Part shown: piece after piece, positions 10,341-35,283 of the stretch | Layout: each line of letters opens with the position of its first letter | How positions within the stretch are numbered: position 1 is the first letter of the stretch | NCBI GenBank assembly: GCA_017851655.1 | Contig: JAFMMH010000008.1 | Location: forward strand, 1-44,695 | Length of the DNA stretch: 44,695 bases | Direction of reading: 5' to 3' | Origin: Flavobacteriaceae bacterium | GTDB lineage: Bacteria; Bacteroidota; Bacteroidia; Flavobacteriales; Flavobacteriaceae | Position numbers and translations under genes: made by a program | Notes under the pieces: model-generated | What the model was told of the DNA's origin: nothing | The model's input: only the letters and a program-made list of their open reading frames with translations | The model's database searches: none

Positions 10341-12164
10341 GTGAAATCATTACTTTTTACCCTTTTATCTTTATGTATTTGCACTCTATCAAGTGCACAG
10401 TACTGGCAACAACATGTAGATTATACGATGGAAGTATCACTCGAGACTGAATCTGCTCGTTATGAAGGCATCCAAAAGCTAGTCTATACCAATAATTCCC
10501 CCGAAACACTTCACAAAGTCTTTTATCATTTATACTTCAATGCTTTTCAGCCCGATAGTGAAATGGCCGTTAGATTAAAAAATGCAGGAGATAAAAACCG
10601 CCGTTTTAAAGTTGATCTAGATACGCTATCAATTGCTCAGCAAGGATTTTTAAAAGTTGCAAATCTAACTCAAAACGGAGCCGCGGTAAAAACCCAAGAA
10701 TCTGGGACCATTCTTGAAGTCCTCCTAAATGAACCTTTGAGTCCAGGTCAAAGCACTCTACTTGAATTAACATTTGAAGGTCAGGTTCCTGATGTAATAC
10801 GTAGAGCAGGTAAAAACTCTTCAGAAGGAGTTGCTTTTTCTATGGCACAATGGTATCCTAAGATGGCAGAATACGATGTTGAGGGGTGGAATACAGACCC
10901 TTATACGGGTAGAGAATTTCACGGTGTATGGGGAAATTTTGATGTTAAAATCAAACTAGATAAAGACTATACGGTCGCAGCGAGTGGGTATTTACAAAAT
11001 GCTGATGATATAGGAAAAGGATATTCGGACAGGAAAAAAGCTAAAGCCAAAAAAGGACTCATTACTTGGCATTTTATCGCTCCTGAAGTTCATGATTTTA
11101 CATGGGCAGCAGACAAAGATTATGTACATGACACTTATCCTGGACCTAATGATGTAACCTTACATTTTTTCTATAAGAATGATCCAGAAATCATTGAAAA
11201 TTGGAAAAAGTTACAACCACATACTGCAAAAATGATGGAATACTATAACACGAAATTAGGACCCTATCCATACAAACAATACAGTGTCGTGCAAGGGGGT
11301 GATGGAGGTATGGAATATGCCATGTTAACGCTGATCACAGGTGGACGTAATTACGGTTCTTTGTTTGGTGTAACCGCTCATGAATTGGCACACTCTTGGT
11401 TTCAACATGTTCTTGCTACCAATGAAACAAAACACGAGTGGATGGATGAAGGGTTTACTTCGTTTATCTCTGCTTTGGCATCAAATGAAATCTTAGAAGA
11501 AAACAAAGAATTTCCTCTCGAAGGATCATACAGAGGCTATTTTAACCTCGCTTCATCTGGAGTTGAAATGCCCCAAAGTACAAATGCAAACCGTTACGAA
11601 CACAACTATGCCTATGAAAGTACTGCTTACAATAAAGGAGCTGTTTTCTTGGGTCAATTAATCTATCTTGTTGGAAATGAAAATTTTTGGGAAATTTTAC
11701 AAACCTATTATAAAGAATGGCAGTTTAAACACCCACAGCCAAATGATTTTAGAAGAATAGCAGAGCGTATATCAGGATTACAATTACAATGGTATTTGAC
11801 AGACTGGACCCAAACAACAAATAAAATAGATTACTCAATAGAAAGTGTTGATTCTTTGAATGAAGGAAGTATAGTCCGGCTCGCAAGAAAAGAATTAATG
11901 CCGATGCCTTTGGAATTACTTGTGGTATATAAAGATGGTATTTCTGAGCTTCATTATATTCCAATTTCTCTAATGCGAGGAGAAAAAGAAAACCCTTATT
12001 CGATTGAATGGACGGTCCATAAAGATTGGACTTGGGCAAATCCGAAATATAATTTAGAGTTAAACCAGAAAAAAGAAAATATTGAGACCATAATTATCGA
12101 CCCTAGTGGACTTATGGCTGATATAGACAAGTCAAATAATTACTATGTCGCGCCAGAAGAATAA
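10341..12164 (+). CDS. M1-family metallopeptidase (aminopeptidase N-like), secreted, GTG start
   Basis: HELAHSWFQHVLATNETKHEWMDEGF (HEXXH...E) and GGMEYAM motif; signal peptide. Confidence 0.92.
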   Translation: MKSLLFTLLSLCICTLSSAQYWQQHVDYTMEVSLETESARYEGIQKLVYTNNSPETLHKVFYHLYFNAFQPDSEMAVRLKNAGDKNRRFKVDLDTLSIAQQGFLKVANLTQNGAAVKTQESGTILEVLLNEPLSPGQSTLLELTFEGQVPDVIRRAGKNSSEGVAFSMAQWYPKMAEYDVEGWNTDPYTGREFHGVWGNFDVKIKLDKDYTVAASGYLQNADDIGKGYSDRKKAKAKKGLITWHFIAPEVHDFTWAADKDYVHDTYPGPNDVTLHFFYKNDPEIIENWKKLQPHTAKMMEYYNTKLGPYPYKQYSVVQGGDGGMEYAMLTLITGGRNYGSLFGVTAHELAHSWFQHVLATNETKHEWMDEGFTSFISALASNEILEENKEFPLEGSYRGYFNLASSGVEMPQSTNANRYEHNYAYESTAYNKGAVFLGQLIYLVGNENFWEILQTYYKEWQFKHPQPNDFRRIAERISGLQLQWYLTDWTQTTNKIDYSIESVDSLNEGSIVRLARKELMPMPLELLVVYKDGISELHYIPISLMRGEKENPYSIEWTVHKDWTWANPKYNLELNQKKENIETIIIDPSGLMADIDKSNNYYVAPEE

Positions 12165-12504
12165 ACTTCCTGTCTTTCGATTAAAAGGAAAAACAACCGT
12201 TGATTTTCTCTTTGAAAACGGAACTCAGACCTATACAAAATCACTTAATCTTAAAACAGTTGTTGAGGAACAGATAAACAAACTTAATGTCGGGGTTTCC
12301 GTTCCTAAACGTTCTTTTAAAAAAGCAGTTGATAGAAACAAAATAAAACGCCAATTGAGAGAGGCCGTTCGTACTCTTCCTGAAAACCTTCTTTTTTCGG
12401 GATATGCAATGGTAATTTACAAGGGCAAAACGCTTCCTTCATCAGATGATTTGAATGCAAATGTTTTAAGCCTTTTTGAATCATTTAAAAATAAAACAAA
12501 ATAG
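12145..12504 (+). CDS. rnpA: Ribonuclease P protein component
   Basis: 119 aa; VGVSVPKRSFKKAVDRNKIKRQLREAVR is the RnpA RNR signature. Confidence 0.93.
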   Translation: MSRQKNKLPVFRLKGKTTVDFLFENGTQTYTKSLNLKTVVEEQINKLNVGVSVPKRSFKKAVDRNKIKRQLREAVRTLPENLLFSGYAMVIYKGKTLPSSDDLNANVLSLFESFKNKTK

Positions 12505-12527: not shown

Positions 12528-12971
12528 CAATAACATGGCTATATGAGGAATTCCATCCTCTAAATACTCTTCACCTATAGATGTAAAACCATGCGTATTA
12601 TAAAATGGAACTAAATGAGATTGGGCAGAAATTTTTATTGTTTCTTTAGGATACAATTCTTCAGTCTTTTGAAGGCTAATATCTAAAAGCCTATGGCCTA
12701 TTTTTTTTCCTCTTGATTTGGGCGAAACAACTATTCTTCCTATCGCAGGGTATTCTAAATAAGCGTTTCCTTTTGCTAATATTCTAGAATAAGCAATTAT
12801 TTTTTTTTGATCATTAAATCCAATAATATGGATCGCTTCATGGTCTTTTCCATCAATATCCTGATAGACACAATTTTGTTCTACAACAAAAACTTCCGAG
12901 CGAAGTTCCATAATGTCGAGCAATTCTTTCGTTGTTAATTCATTAAATTTTTTAGATTTAAAAACGATCAT
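12519..12971 (-). CDS. GNAT-family N-acetyltransferase, ElaA-like
   Basis: 150 aa; LRSEVFVVEQNCVYQDIDGKD and IGRIVVSPKSRGKKIGHRLL. Confidence 0.85.
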   Translation of the reverse strand: MIVFKSKKFNELTTKELLDIMELRSEVFVVEQNCVYQDIDGKDHEAIHIIGFNDQKKIIAYSRILAKGNAYLEYPAIGRIVVSPKSRGKKIGHRLLDISLQKTEELYPKETIKISAQSHLVPFYNTHGFTSIGEEYLEDGIPHIAMLLKK

Positions 12972-13402
12972 TAACTACATGGTATTTTTTCTATTCTTCC
13001 TTGATGGCGTCCTCCCTCAAATTTGGTGTTTAAAAATGTTTCTACCATTGTTATTGCTTGAGGTATAGAAACAAAACGAGCAGGAATGCTCAAAATATTT
13101 GCATCGTTATGTGCTCTTGATAAAGCAACTATTTCTGAATTCCAACAGAGAGCGGCTCTAATTTTTTTGTGTTTATTTGCCGTCATGGCAGCACCATTAC
13201 CACTACCACAAATAATGATCCCAAGGTCTACGGTGTTATTAGACACATCATTTGCAACAGGATGAATAAAATCAGCATAATCTACACTATCTAAAGTGTC
13301 TGTTCCATGGTTATTTACCTTGTGCCCTTTCTCTTCTAAAAACCTTACAATTGCTTCTTTATATGCTGGTCCTGCATGATCATTTCCAATGCTAATTTTC
13401 AT
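12971..13402 (-). CDS. rpiB: Ribose-5-phosphate isomerase B
   Basis: 143 aa; ISIGNDHAGPAYKEAIV...GIIICGSGNGAAMTANKHKKIRAALCW. Confidence 0.93.
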   Translation of the reverse strand: MKISIGNDHAGPAYKEAIVRFLEEKGHKVNNHGTDTLDSVDYADFIHPVANDVSNNTVDLGIIICGSGNGAAMTANKHKKIRAALCWNSEIVALSRAHNDANILSIPARFVSIPQAITMVETFLNTKFEGGRHQGRIEKIPCS

Positions 13403-13905
13403 AATATTTTGTTTTTGTAAAAATAAGAAACCTTTTTACTGTGTTTATAAAGTGTCAACTACTTTATTCATTATTTGTTTACAAAAGGAAATAAAAATAG
13501 TTGTGTATGTTCTATATTTTTTATGATGGTCGAATATTATTAATATGGATTGTTTTTTAAGATTATTTATAAATCAAAAATTGACAATTAAAGTTTAGTT
13601 ATCAAATAAAAAAGGATATTAATTTCACACTAGTTATTTACAAAATAGGTTATAAACAAGAAATTAATAAAAGACCCAACTAGTTGATTTTAATAATATT
13701 GATTTGTTAATAGCGAATTATAAATTGTGTGTATTTCTTTATTTTGATAAATTCAAAATAGAATGAAAAATATATATAGACACTATTAACAAGCTATATA
13801 CATCATCATATTTTAAATTAAATAAAAATAAAAATAATTAAATATGTTTATAATGTTCATATGTAAGCGAAAACGAATATTGTACCTTTGACAGAAGTAA
13901 TATTT
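13403..13905. other. Candidate replication-origin-like AT-rich intergenic region between divergent rpiB and rnr
   Basis: No ORF in the track; hand count 75 G+C in 420 nt (13441-13860). TTATAAACA 9-mers at 13442-13450(-), 13650-13658(+), 13845-13853(-); variants TTATTTACA 13634-13642 and TTGTTTACA 13475-13483; 10-bp inverted repeat 13704/13783. Confidence 0.4.
13883..13890 (+). promoter_or_regulatory. Bacteroidetes -7 promoter element TACCTTTG upstream of rnr
   Basis: TAnnTTTG match 15 nt upstream of ATG 13906; it also argues against the upstream ORF start at 13888. Confidence 0.5.
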
Positions 13906-16062
13906 ATGTCTAATAAAAAAAAGAATCTCAAACGTTTAGAATCACAAATTCTCTCACTTTTTAGAAACAGTGTTTCCTCAGTTTTGAATTATAAGCAAAT
14001 TGCCTCTAAATTAGATATACGCGATACAAAAGGTAGAAACGATATTATTCGTTTACTCCACCAACTTCACAATAAGAAACAACTAATAGTAAAACAAAGG
14101 GGACAATATCAATATAATAAAATTAGTGTTCCAACCCAACGTGCTAAATTAACCATTATCCCATCTGGCAAAGGTGTCGTTAAAATTGAATCTCATGAGG
14201 ATGAAATTATTGTTCCAAAAAAGTTTTTAAACAAATCTTTGGATGGAGACCTAGTAGAAGTAAGTATTCATAAAGACGGTAAGTTTTTTGAAGCTCATGT
14301 TGATTCTATTGTAGAACGATCAACCAAAGAGTATGTTGGAGTTTTAGATAGACAAAAGGATTTTGGTTTTGTTGTATGTAAAGGCAGCAAAATTTACACT
14401 GATTTTTTTATTGAAAAGGAAGACTTAAAAGATTTTAAAGATGGTGAAAAAGTTGTGGTTGTTTTTAAAAGCTGGAAAGAAAGAAAAGAGGCACCTCATG
14501 CAACTATAGTCAAGAGTCTAGGTTTGCCAGGAGAATTAGACACTGAGCTTCATGGTATTCTTCATGAGTATGGTTTACCCTATGAATTCCCCTCAGCCGT
14601 ATTAGAAGAAGCAGCATTCTTTTCAGATCAGATCAGTTCTCAAGAATTAAAAAATAGAAAAGATTTTAGAAAAACGCTCACATTTACCATTGATCCAAAA
14701 ACAGCAAAAGACTTTGATGACGCAATTTCATTTAAAGATTTAGGAAACAATCGCTATGAAATAGGAATACATATTGCAGATGTTTCGCATTATGTAGAAC
14801 CAAAAACAGAATTAGATAGGGAGGCGTATGAAAGAGCCACATCTGTATATTTAGTAGATAGAGTTGTACCCATGTTACCTGAAGTTTTATCTAATGGCCT
14901 TTGTTCATTAAGACCTCAAGAAGAAAAATTAACTTTTTCTGCAGTTTTTGTATTAGATGACTCAGGAAAAATACATGATGAATGGTACGGAAGAACTGTC
15001 ATTTTTTCAGACTATCGTTTTGCCTATGACGAGGTTCAGAATATCATTGATCAAGATAAAGCAGAAGTTGAAGCGCAGTATTCTTTGACAGGAAAAAAAT
15101 ATGCTGTGCCAAATGAAGTATTTGGAGCTATAAAAAACTTGAACAAATTAGCTAAAACATTAAGATCAGACAGAATGAAAAAAGGAGCGATTTCCTTTGA
15201 TCGTGTAGAAGTAAGTTTTCTCTTAGACGAAGAGAACAAACCAGAATCTGTTTATTTTAAAAGTTCAAAAGATGCCCACAAATTAATAGAAGAGTTTATG
15301 CTGCTTGCCAACAGAAAAGTTGCTTCTTTTATTGGCAAACGCGCAAAAAAGCATGCATTCGTATATCGTATTCATGATGAACCAAACGAAGAAAAACTTG
15401 TCAACTTAAAACAAACAGTACGTTCTTTTGGTTATTCCTTTAATCTATCTGAAAAAAATATAAATAAAGAAATCAATGGTTTATTGTTAGCATGTAATGG
15501 CACAAAAGAGCAAAATTTAATTGACACTCTTACGCTTAGATGTATGTCTAAAGCCGTATATACTACACAAAACATAGGCCATTATGGTCTAGCCTTTTCT
15601 CATTATACACACTTCACTTCTCCTATACGCCGATATCCTGATGTTATGGTGCATCGTCTTTTACAAAAATATTTAGACGGAGAATCTTCAGTGTCTGAGA
15701 GTACTTTAGAAGAGGCATGTGAACATAGTTCACAAAGAGAACAATTAGCAACAAAGGCAGAAAGAGATTCCATCAAACACATGCAGATGGTATTTATGGA
15801 AGACAAGGTTGGAATGGAGTATGATGCTGTTATTTCGGGTGTAACAGATCGCGGTATTTATGTTGAAATTATAGAAAACAAATGTGAAGGAATGATCCGT
15901 ATTATGGACATTAAGGGCGATTATTTTCGTTTTGACATGGATAAGCATGCTCTTGTTGGAGAACGTACGAAAAAAACCTACCAGTTAGGAGATGAATTAC
16001 GAATTAAGGTTAAAAAAGTAAATGTAATTAAACGCTTTTTAGATTTTGTACCTTTAAATTAA
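13906..16062 (+). CDS. rnr: Ribonuclease R
   Basis: RNB domain FTIDPKTAKDFDDAISF, cold-shock and S1-like regions; start set at ATG 13906. Confidence 0.95.
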   Translation: MSNKKKNLKRLESQILSLFRNSVSSVLNYKQIASKLDIRDTKGRNDIIRLLHQLHNKKQLIVKQRGQYQYNKISVPTQRAKLTIIPSGKGVVKIESHEDEIIVPKKFLNKSLDGDLVEVSIHKDGKFFEAHVDSIVERSTKEYVGVLDRQKDFGFVVCKGSKIYTDFFIEKEDLKDFKDGEKVVVVFKSWKERKEAPHATIVKSLGLPGELDTELHGILHEYGLPYEFPSAVLEEAAFFSDQISSQELKNRKDFRKTLTFTIDPKTAKDFDDAISFKDLGNNRYEIGIHIADVSHYVEPKTELDREAYERATSVYLVDRVVPMLPEVLSNGLCSLRPQEEKLTFSAVFVLDDSGKIHDEWYGRTVIFSDYRFAYDEVQNIIDQDKAEVEAQYSLTGKKYAVPNEVFGAIKNLNKLAKTLRSDRMKKGAISFDRVEVSFLLDEENKPESVYFKSSKDAHKLIEEFMLLANRKVASFIGKRAKKHAFVYRIHDEPNEEKLVNLKQTVRSFGYSFNLSEKNINKEINGLLLACNGTKEQNLIDTLTLRCMSKAVYTTQNIGHYGLAFSHYTHFTSPIRRYPDVMVHRLLQKYLDGESSVSESTLEEACEHSSQREQLATKAERDSIKHMQMVFMEDKVGMEYDAVISGVTDRGIYVEIIENKCEGMIRIMDIKGDYFRFDMDKHALVGERTKKTYQLGDELRIKVKKVNVIKRFLDFVPLN

Positions 16063-16774: not shown

Positions 16775-16845
16775 AGGCATCGAGCGGATTCGAACCGCTG
16801 TACAAGCTTTTGCAGAGCTCTGCCTAGCCACTCGGCCACGATGCC
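16775..16845 (-). tRNA. tRNA-Cys (GCA)
   Basis: Reverse complement GGCATCGTGGCCGAGTGGCTAGGCAGAGCTCTGCAAAAGCTTGTACAGCGGTTCGAATCCGCTCGATGCCT: cloverleaf with anticodon GCA. Confidence 0.95.
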
Positions 16846-21486: not shown

Positions 21487-21912
21487 ATCATATATTATAA
21501 CGACATACCGGATTTTTTAAATGAAGATAAAATCACTTCTGTTCTCAAAGAATATATAACGCGCTTTGGTTTTTCTATTGACACCTTATCATATAACTTT
21601 GTTTCTAAAGACAAAATGCTTAGTCTTAATCAATCTTATTTAAATCACGATACCCACACTGATATTATTAGCTTTGATTACAGTTCTCGAGAATCGCTTA
21701 AAGCAGAATTTTTTATTTCCATGTGGGCTGTAGCACACTCAGCACAAACAGAGTCACAAACTATTGAAAATGAGACTCTTAGAGTCATTGTTCACGGTGT
21801 TTTACATTGTATTGGTTATCAAGACGACACAATTGATAAAAAAACTGAGATGCGACGTCTCGAAGATGAATTTATTCAAATGTTCCACGTGAAACAAAAA
21901 CCGCATGTTTGA
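21487..21912 (+). CDS. ybeY: rRNA maturation RNase YbeY (start codon uncertain)
   Basis: LNHDTHTDIISFDYS and HGVLHCIGYQDD metal-binding motif. ORF track starts at 21355 inside gltX; homology suggests initiation near 21481-21490, where there is no ATG/GTG/TTG. Confidence 0.85.
   Translation: MIYYNDIPDFLNEDKITSVLKEYITRFGFSIDTLSYNFVSKDKMLSLNQSYLNHDTHTDIISFDYSSRESLKAEFFISMWAVAHSAQTESQTIENETLRVIVHGVLHCIGYQDDTIDKKTEMRRLEDEFIQMFHVKQKPHV
21881..21896 (+). promoter_or_regulatory. parS: parS site 1 (ParB-binding centromere-like site)
   Basis: TGTTCCACGTGAAACA, exact match to the bacterial parS consensus TGTTNCACGTGAAACA; embedded in the 3' end of ybeY, 8 nt upstream of the mnmG ATG. Confidence 0.9.
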
Positions 21913-23776
21913 TTCTAAGTTTGATGTAATAGTAGTTGGTGCTGGTCATGCAGGATGTGAAGCTGCAGCAGCAGCTGCGAACCTTGGGTCTCGCACCCTT
22001 CTGATCACGATGAATTTGCAGAATGTTGCGCAAATGTCTTGTAATCCCGCGATGGGAGGAATTGCTAAAGGACAGATTGTCAGAGAGGTAGATGCTCTCG
22101 GAGGATATTCTGGCATTGTTTCAGATCGAAGTGCGATACAATTTAAGATGTTAAATCAGTCCAAAGGACCAGCAATGTGGAGTCCTAGGGTCCAATCTGA
22201 TAGAAGCCTTTTTACTCTCGAATGGAGATCCTTACTTGAAAAGACACCAAATCTTGATTTTTATCAAGATACTGTGGTGGATTTAATTGTAGAAAGCGAA
22301 CAAGTTATCGGTGTTGTTACTTCTCTTGGGCTCAAAATATATAGCACCACTGTAATTCTAACAAATGGAACCTTCTTAAACGGTTTAATCCATATAGGAG
22401 AGAAGAATTTTGGCGGTGGACGTGCCGGCGAAAAATCCTCTCTAGGATTAACCGCAGCCCTAGAATCATTAGGTTTCACCGCTGGTAGAATGAAAACGGG
22501 AACACCTCCACGAGTAGATGGAAGGTCTTTAGATTATTCAAAAATGGTAGAACAGCCTGGAGATCTAAACCCCTCTAAGTTCTCTTTTTCTGATCGTACA
22601 GTTCCATTAACAAAACAAGTGAGTTGTCACATCACTCATACCAATCAAGATGTACATGATCTTTTGCGCACAGGTTTCGATAGGTCACCAATGTTTAATG
22701 GTTCTATAAAAAGTACTGGCCCTAGATATTGTCCGTCTATTGAAGATAAGATCAATCGTTTTAGTGATAAATCTCAGCATCAAATTTTTGTAGAACCTGA
22801 AGGCTGGAATACCGTTGAAGTATATGTTAATGGCTTTTCTACTTCGTTGCCTGACGACATACAATTCAAAGCCTTAAAACAAGTGCGTGGTTTTGAAAAT
22901 GTTAAATTCTTTAGACCAGGCTATGCTATAGAATATGATTACTTCCAGCCCACACAATTGTTTCACAGTTTAGAAACAAAGGGAGTCCAAAATCTTTTCT
23001 TTGCAGGCCAAATAAACGGAACAACGGGCTATGAAGAGGCTGCAGCTCAGGGCATAATGGCAGGAATCAACGCTCATCTTAAATGTAAAGATGAAACCCC
23101 TTTTGTCCTTGGTAGAGACGAAGCCTATATTGGTGTTCTGATAGATGACTTGATTTTAAAGGGCACAGAAGAACCTTATAGAATGTTTACCTCTAGAGCA
23201 GAATATCGCACCTTATTACGTCAGGATAACGCTGACCAAAGGCTTACGCCTAAAGCCCATGCTCTTGGATTGGTATCAGATAAGCGGCTTAAACAAGTTG
23301 AGCGTAAACAGCATTTAGGAGCGTTAACAGTTTCACACTTAATGAAAACCAGTTATGATTTGGAAATCGCAAATCAACTCCTTAAAACGAAAGATGATGT
23401 TACAGTCACTCAGACAGATAAATTTTCAAAATTATTGAGCAGACCAAATATCAAACGACAGGATTTGCATCAATTTGAATCTGTGACAAAGTTTCTTTCC
23501 GAGAATAAAATAGACGACACGATTTTTGAGCAAGCTGAAATTCAAATCAAATATGCAGGCTATATTGAAAAGGAAAAGCGAAATGCGGATAAATTGAATC
23601 GTTTAGAAAACATCAAAATCCCCTCAGCTTTTGATTACGATAGGCTTGCTTCATTATCCCACGAAGCAAAGGAAAAACTAAGCAAACTAAAGCCAAGCAC
23701 TTTGGGTCAAGCATCAAGAATTAGCGGCATAAACCCAAGCGACATCAGTGTTCTCTTGGTCTCTATGGGACGTTAA
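21905..23776 (+). CDS. mnmG: tRNA uridine-5-carboxymethylaminomethyl modification enzyme MnmG/GidA
   Basis: VIVVGAGHAGCEAAAAAANLG, CNPAMGGIAKGQIVREVDALGG, C-terminal ASRISGINPSDISVLL. Confidence 0.97.
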   Translation: MFDSKFDVIVVGAGHAGCEAAAAAANLGSRTLLITMNLQNVAQMSCNPAMGGIAKGQIVREVDALGGYSGIVSDRSAIQFKMLNQSKGPAMWSPRVQSDRSLFTLEWRSLLEKTPNLDFYQDTVVDLIVESEQVIGVVTSLGLKIYSTTVILTNGTFLNGLIHIGEKNFGGGRAGEKSSLGLTAALESLGFTAGRMKTGTPPRVDGRSLDYSKMVEQPGDLNPSKFSFSDRTVPLTKQVSCHITHTNQDVHDLLRTGFDRSPMFNGSIKSTGPRYCPSIEDKINRFSDKSQHQIFVEPEGWNTVEVYVNGFSTSLPDDIQFKALKQVRGFENVKFFRPGYAIEYDYFQPTQLFHSLETKGVQNLFFAGQINGTTGYEEAAAQGIMAGINAHLKCKDETPFVLGRDEAYIGVLIDDLILKGTEEPYRMFTSRAEYRTLLRQDNADQRLTPKAHALGLVSDKRLKQVERKQHLGALTVSHLMKTSYDLEIANQLLKTKDDVTVTQTDKFSKLLSRPNIKRQDLHQFESVTKFLSENKIDDTIFEQAEIQIKYAGYIEKEKRNADKLNRLENIKIPSAFDYDRLASLSHEAKEKLSKLKPSTLGQASRISGINPSDISVLLVSMGR

Positions 23777-23782
23777 TCAAAA

Positions 23783-23798
23783 TGTTTCACGTGAAACA
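23783..23798 (+). promoter_or_regulatory. parS: parS site 2 (ParB-binding centromere-like site)
   Basis: TGTTTCACGTGAAACA, perfect 16-bp palindrome matching the parS consensus; lies in the 25-nt gap between the mnmG stop and the methyltransferase ATG. Confidence 0.93.
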
Positions 23799-34320: not shown

Positions 34321-35283
34321 ATGATTTATAAATTCATGATTACAAAGATATTTAAAAGGCTTTCGATTTTCTCTTATATCGTCTCTTTTTTTTTGACCCT
34401 AGCCGTTAATCTTTTTGATTTGTACAGTAGAAATGCTGCTGAGATTTATCCAGGACTATTTCAGCGAGCACTTACAATTAGTTCAGGGCTAATAATCATA
34501 ATTGTAATGGTTTCCTTATCTGCCACCAAGAAAATCAACACAAAATTTGGGGCAGAACACCTTTTGTCTTTTCCAGTCTGCCTTTTATTGTTTTACCAAG
34601 ATGCAGGGCTGAATTATCAGAAATTTTTTTTAGGAATCATATTAGTGATTGCACTGAATATTTTTTCAAAAGATTGGAGTAAAGGAAATTCCAATAAAGC
34701 TCTTTTTTCCCTTGGATGCTTATTTACGATTACAAGCTTTATAAACAGTTATTTTTCTATTTTTTTCATTTCAACACTCTTAATCATCATCCGATTAAAT
34801 AATAAAAGAAGTGCGATATTTTCTCTCTTGATAGGTGTATTTATGACGCTTCAATCATTAGCCATAGTCACCTATTTATTAACAGGAAAGTTTTTATACG
34901 CACCTCCTGCTAAATTTTTGGAGAGTATTCCCTTAAATAGGATAATAAATGGGACAGAATTGGTTTGGATTATAATGGTCATTTTGGCTTTTATTTCGGC
35001 ATTTTATTTAAAAAGGGTCAAGAGAAGAGGATCTCACTTCATTCGTTTTGAGGGAGGAGATAATTTTATGCTTTTTTGGTTGGTAACAAGTGTGGTTTTT
35101 AGAATCTTTAACCTATATGTGGGAGGTGGAATTTGGCTACTTAGCTTTATTCCAACTGCCTTTTTTATTGGTAAAGCATATAAAACAATAAAAAAGGACG
35201 CTATTAAAGAGGTTTTGGTTTTGTTACTTGTTTGTTTTGGGATTGTTTTTAAACTCTATGAAAATGGAGTATTTATAAACTAA
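34321..35283 (+). CDS. DUF6427-like polytopic membrane protein
   Basis: 320 aa, multiple TMs; typical flavobacterial context. Confidence 0.6.
   Translation: MIYKFMITKIFKRLSIFSYIVSFFLTLAVNLFDLYSRNAAEIYPGLFQRALTISSGLIIIIVMVSLSATKKINTKFGAEHLLSFPVCLLLFYQDAGLNYQKFFLGIILVIALNIFSKDWSKGNSNKALFSLGCLFTITSFINSYFSIFFISTLLIIIRLNNKRSAIFSLLIGVFMTLQSLAIVTYLLTGKFLYAPPAKFLESIPLNRIINGTELVWIIMVILAFISAFYLKRVKRRGSHFIRFEGGDNFMLFWLVTSVVFRIFNLYVGGGIWLLSFIPTAFFIGKAYKTIKKDAIKEVLVLLLVCFGIVFKLYENGVFIN

Follow-up and report, generated by a model that had tools for sequence, protein, structure and literature searches.

In the Bacteroidetes, the chromosomal origin of replication (oriC) is commonly distant from dnaA (PMC4755523). 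Ori-Finder reports place oriC next to mnmG in Mariniflexile and Algorimicrobium, and in Mariniflexile this mnmG-side position fits the GC skew whereas the position of dnaA does not (PMC11278836, PMC12843772). The word read by the initiator also differs between clades: the box change in Epsilonproteobacteria has been proposed to accompany changes in domain IV of DnaA (PMC10225481, PMC5043019), and positions 435 and 438-439 of the protein have been proposed to account for clade-specific box reading (PMC5043019).

The locus described here lies in a window of 44,695 nucleotides, one entire contig (C73) of a Flavobacteriaceae MAG of 130 contigs and 1.85 Mb. An earlier note on this DNA had put forward the divergent intergenic gap between rpiB and rnr as a candidate oriC, and comparison with relatives supports that proposal through conserved boxes, the place and length of the gap, skew and parS sites. 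From the sequence we infer DnaA binding and initiation in the gap, and we consider it very likely to be the chromosomal oriC of the source genome. It is very probably an origin of the ordinary type, its peculiarities being a box specific to the lineage and a change in DnaA that plausibly matches this box. The site is common to the family, with the altered initiator word TTATNAACA in place of TTATNCACA, and the change in the DnaA helix probably matches it.

Table 1. Features of the proposed origin region and its surroundings, with positions in the window.
Feature	Position	Strand	Basis
rnpA	12145..12504	+	Identity from reading the protein
rpiB, left neighbour	12971..13402	-	ORF; adjoins the gap in relatives too
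Proposed oriC region, the gap between divergent rpiB and rnr	13403..13905		Gap kept in relatives; box enrichment
DnaA-box candidate TTATAAACA	13442..13450	-	9-mer search; class enriched in relatives
Weak box candidate TTATTTACA	13634..13642	+	Alignment; T6 not enriched overall
DnaA-box candidate TTATAAACA	13650..13658	+	9-mer search; class enriched in relatives
DnaA-box candidate CTATTAACA	13705..13713	-	YTATNAACA search
Core DnaA-box candidate CTATTAACA, the gap's most conserved box	13783..13791	+	Alignment of relatives
AGCT spacer of 4 bp (NNCT as family consensus, its C in 95%)	13792..13795	+	Core alignment
Five 3-bp repeats ATA TAC ATC ATC ATA, DnaA-trio-like	13796..13810	+	Family: ATM ATA AYC AYC ATT
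33-bp G/C-free stretch, proposed DNA-unwinding element	13811..13843		G+C count
DnaA-box candidate TTATAAACA facing the AT run	13845..13853	-	9-mer search and alignment
Second, weaker tandem box ATATGAACA	13854..13862	-	Sequence and alignment
TACCTTTG, probable -7 element of the rnr promoter	13882..13889	+	Sequence match; TTTG end conserved in alignment
rnr (RNase R), right neighbour	13906..16062	+	ORF
parS-like site, one mismatch	21882..21895		Motif search
mnmG (gidA)	21905..23776	+	ORF; between the two parS-like sites
parS-like site, perfect GTTTCACGTGAAAC	23784..23797		Motif search

By direct count the gap measures 503 bp and contains 94 G+C (19%), and the stretch 13801-13860 holds exactly 6 G+C, the figure given before. 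A scan of the whole window showed that its most AT-rich 60-mer lies beside copies of TTATAAACA and has no equal in AT content beyond the gap region. The gap thus has what is looked for in an oriC, an AT-rich candidate unwinding element beside boxes, and the AT run is also kept in relatives. To the right, an alternative TTG start of rnr at 13888 is likewise open. The consensus of the Bacteroidetes -7 promoter element is TAnnTTTG, and TACCTTTG is probably part of the rnr promoter. The left side of the gap also has rnpA close by, a gene frequently found near oriC in other bacteria. An Rfam search of the window returned tRNAs only, with no match inside the gap: one gene at 16775-16845 on the minus strand and one at 1-51 that is cut off by the contig start.

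The earlier proposal had started from three copies of the 9-mer TTATAAACA and two near variants, TTATTTACA and TTGTTTACA, all of which are present where they had been placed; the fourth and last copy of TTATAAACA in the window is at 34739. The rarity claimed for this 9-mer holds in part. Three copies of TTATAAACA in the gap have a P of about 0.0005 in 4000 dinucleotide shuffles, but some 9-mer reaches three copies in 13% of the shuffles, and the triple by itself, chosen post hoc, is only modestly unusual. The wider word YTATNAACA (hereafter the A-box) has five copies in the gap where about 0.3 would be expected, a count that none of the 4000 shuffles reaches; because this word was chosen after the alignment had been seen, the relatives and not the shuffle P value are its test. 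The gap contains 5 of the window's 11 A-boxes. No canonical DnaA box of the TTATNCACA or TTATCCACA form occurs within the gap of the window, an absence remarked on before and explained by the lineage-specific box TTATNAACA. At 13475-13483, TTGTTTACA, a word with T6, is shared by the window and its six nearest aligned relatives, and at the place of 13634 several of the nearest relatives align a box-like word with a variable position 6; these words are perhaps a third box form in the source subclade. The tandem place at 13854-13862 is occupied by TTATGAACA or a similar word in several relatives.

A scan based on rnr yielded 80 loci, and in 59 of them, the window included, rpiB is divergent to rnr. 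Among the 20 nearest loci with both genes and a short gap, the gap is 486-508 bp long with 15-28% G+C (one of these gaps carries a run of N), and rnr identity, the window itself excepted, ranges from 48 to 81%. Alignment of the gap, which had been suggested as a check, thus shows its place and length to be kept. Conservation of the 9-mers, on which the proposal had been allowed to fail, is seen across the family at the level of the class. Over the 59 gaps, YTATNAACA was observed 217 times against 19 expected, YTATNCACA (the C-box) 37 times against 4.6, YTATNGACA 13 times against 3.2 and YTATNTACA, near chance, 21 times against 16; the gaps share a common ancestry, so these totals are not 59 independent tests. 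Position 6 of the family box, as read from these counts, is A and sometimes C, the C version being the usual DnaA box, and several family gaps hold some C-boxes alongside A-boxes. With five A-boxes in 503 bp and an 11-fold enrichment in the 59 gaps, the locus has the cluster of candidate DnaA boxes, recognized by sequence, that an oriC should have. Five relatives were sampled outside the gap, and the stretches covered held no more than three boxes per 500 bp; the gap itself has six in A. forsetii and four in G060. A record titled as a Bdellovibrio sp. ZAP7 MAG (L080, CALPKO020000131.1) contains an rpiB-rnr gap of flavobacterial type, six A-boxes included, and is probably a mislabelled or mixed bin.

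An alignment of 42 non-redundant sequences, anchored on the best-conserved box, revealed a core module that the earlier note had missed: the CTATTAACA box at 13783 and the periodic repeat that follows it, both of which strengthen the case for oriC. The order in the 42 sequences is CTATTAACA, NNCT, ATM ATA AYC AYC ATT and then runs of T and of A, with an opposite-facing box TGTTNATAA 50-60 bp further on. Position 6 of the core box is A in 81% and C in 19%; A7, C8, A9, A14 and T15 of the module are invariant, and C12 is found in 95%. The 3-bp period begins 4 bp past the box, with T as the middle base at frequencies of 1.00,.83,.43,.57 and.81, while in the remaining registers the middle-base frequency is at most.17, the CTA next to the box set aside. 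When up to three mismatches were allowed, a 26-bp core pattern had matches in 42 out of 50 further genomes of the Flavobacteriaceae, compared with 2 of 50 for the reversed control. Outside the Flavobacteriaceae it gave matches at chance level only. Some genera without a match have a recognizable, more diverged core at the same place. The core is adjoined by rpiB in all 25 family loci that were fetched, and rnr was seen in 21 of these 25 within the 3 kb examined. The 1.5 kb upstream of rpiB was also examined in some other families of the order; most of these stretches had few boxes and no close match to the core, the exceptions being in f3 and f7.

These elements suggest a mechanism in which DnaA, encoded on another contig, would bind several 9-bp YTATNAACA boxes. 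The core box at 13783 points into the 3-bp repeats and the 33-bp G/C-free stretch, and one or two opposite boxes would close the far side. Bound on both sides of the AT run, DnaA would extend from the core box over the 3-bp repeats, a step paralleled in B. subtilis, where DnaA extends over DnaA-trios (PMC8287927). The resulting assembly would melt 13811-13843 and lead to helicase loading. Position 6 of the box would have gone from C to A along with a change of DnaA residue 435 to Ala.

As the source genome is a MAG of 130 contigs, GC skew was sampled in relatives. Two relatives with large contigs show a minus-to-plus turn across the gap: in G006 the turn lies in the interval 177-218 kb and the core is at 196 kb; in G010 the interval is 524-638 kb and the core position 593 kb. 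In G002 the skew is noisy and flips about 60-145 kb beyond the core; on the closed 2.03-Mb chromosome of A. forsetii the gap is at 180 kb, about 45-60 kb from the cumulative minimum (about 224-240 kb); and in G060 (3.47 Mb) a coarse minimum, sampled about every 175 kb, is 172 kb from the gap. The skew change that the earlier note had seen near the gap is present in the window, though weak and spread over 4-26 kb; of the five relatives, two have it at the gap to within the resolution of the sampling, and in the other three the distance is 45-170 kb. The two parS sites reported 8-10 kb away were found again, and no other parS-like site with one mismatch or none occurs in the 1.85 Mb of the MAG, so that the gap has parS nearby as an oriC should; A. 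forsetii has a like pair 8-10 kb from its gap. The pair sits just outside both ends of mnmG, and the A. forsetii pair (169711 and 171605) has the same 1.9-kb spacing. The dnaA gene of the source MAG is on another contig and is also far from the core in G091, G107, G121, G136 and G150; its absence from the window, previously counted against the proposal, is correct as stated and expected, since oriC is often far from dnaA in Bacteroidetes (PMC4755523).

The source DnaA is complete, and its recognition helix reads RDHATVLHAC, compared with RDHTTVIHA in B. subtilis. We take the changed residue to be 435 in E. coli numbering. Among the 30 Flavobacteriaceae DnaAs that we read, 28 have DHAT and two have DHST, the latter in a single genus (G051 and G250). 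The rpiB-side gap of these two genomes keeps the core and the repeat and holds six YTATNCACA each and no A-box, the words being TTATCCACA, TTATACACA and one CTATCCACA. Five DHAT genomes were compared likewise: four contain four A-boxes each with no more than one C-box, and the fifth contains one box of each type. The pairing of C-type boxes with DHST and of A-boxes with DHAT ties the boxes to DnaA and suggests a joint change of box and helix; the family provides a single contrast for this, from one genus. The mixture of C-boxes and A-boxes in some family gaps implies that DHAT may read both. We see about an even chance that the Flavobacteriaceae carry a lineage-wide rewired initiator-origin pair, in which residue 435 went from Thr/Ser to Ala with box position 6 from C to A and the Ser435 genus keeps TTATCCACA/TTATACACA in the orthologous origin. 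In both genomes of this genus (L308 and L309) the DnaA motif is DHSTVLHSC, and the boxes upstream of rpiB are mostly spaced alike. The DnaA of Weeksellaceae-like genomes is mostly of the DHST type, and boxes resembling TTATCCACA have been described for an Elizabethkingia oriC (PMC8994065), as would fit a covariation of helix and box. When Weeksellaceae-like DHST genomes were scanned for canonical clusters by listing TTATNCACA, one group was found: three TTATCCACA within 263 bp (G256:C1:261502-261764), a candidate oriC that is not near rpiB. As a DnaA box with a plausible matching change in DnaA, TTATNAACA is likely to be new; no report of it was found in the literature searched.

The origin might lie nearby but elsewhere, for example at mnmG and the parS sites, with the rpiB-rnr gap merely a neighbour. 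The Ori-Finder reports, which name mnmG as adjacent to oriC in Flavobacteriaceae, would agree with this, as would the skew minima 45-170 kb off in three relatives. However, mnmG is only 8 kb from the gap, so "adjacent" is compatible with an origin in the gap; moreover, the densest 500 bp of YTATNAACA in the window is the gap, and the core module is found there throughout the family. We regard an origin outside the gap as improbable.

It seems very unlikely that the gap is simply a pair of divergent promoters in AT-rich DNA, with the 9-mers serving as transcription-factor sites for rpiB and rnr. AT-rich divergent gaps are common, two divergent promoters could also conserve such a gap, TACCTTTG is a promoter-like element ahead of rnr, and the original 9-mer was picked post hoc, a triple of any 9-mer having a P of about 0.13. 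Against this, the same gap in the DHST genus has six canonical DnaA boxes of the TTATCCACA/TTATACACA type, several relatives have their skew turn at the gap or close to it, parS and mnmG lie nearby, and the succession of box, spacer, repeat and AT run resembles an unwinding site and not an operator. A cluster of boxes for DnaA titration or regulation, like datA or DARS, with the origin elsewhere, would account for the boxes too, as loci of this type also hold clustered DnaA boxes. Yet it would leave aside the AT run at the core box, the nearby skew switch, the proximity of parS and the family-wide conservation of place, and the stretches sampled in relatives contained no denser box cluster; we give this explanation very little credence.

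An oriC in the rpiB-rnr gap would provide a short, conserved and testable origin for a large and ecologically important family in which origins are usually named by a nearby gene only. The altered box is a possible reason for the failure of E. coli-box searches to detect flavobacterial origins. If the covariation of helix and box is true, it would be a natural case of an essential protein-DNA pair with changed specificity, for which two proteins and two oligonucleotides (the A-box TTATTAACA and TTATCCACA) suffice for testing. A defined oriC would also be useful for metagenome growth-rate estimates and for plasmid building.

The locus shares with bacterial oriC in general a box cluster, a putative AT-rich unwinding stretch, a skew switch at or near it in some relatives, nearby parS sites and an intergenic position; it differs in that its boxes are YTATNAACA, with A6, and not TTATNCACA, that dnaA is distant and that rpiB and rnr flank it. 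Compared with the Ori-Finder predictions beside mnmG (PMC11278836, PMC12843772), it lies in the same chromosomal neighbourhood, but those reports give an indicator gene only, whereas the present analysis puts the element itself in the rpiB-rnr interval, about 8 kb from mnmG, and names its boxes. With the basal unwinding system of the B. subtilis type (PMC6669920, PMC8287927) it has in common a box, a spacer of about 4 bp and consecutive 3-bp repeats leading into an AT run. Unlike DnaA-trios, the repeats read ATM ATA AYC AYC ATT, the middle A of the complementary strand being weak in repeats 3 and 4, and the one CTA (3'-GAT-5') stands 2 bp after the core box in another register. The 3'-GAT-5' trio consensus is not found in the gap repeats, whose top strand has ATA/ATC and AYC. 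Measured against the definition of at least three 3'-NAN-5' within 16 bp of a box, the five repeats have middle-base frequencies of.43-1.00 and repeat 2 of the window is TAC, although NAN runs arise easily by chance in AT-rich DNA. Finally, the altered 9-mer has counterparts in other clade-specific boxes, TTTTCCACA in cyanobacteria and the TTCAC core in Epsilonproteobacteria (PMC10225481, PMC5043019); those variants keep C6, whereas the flavobacterial change is at position 6 itself, from C to A.
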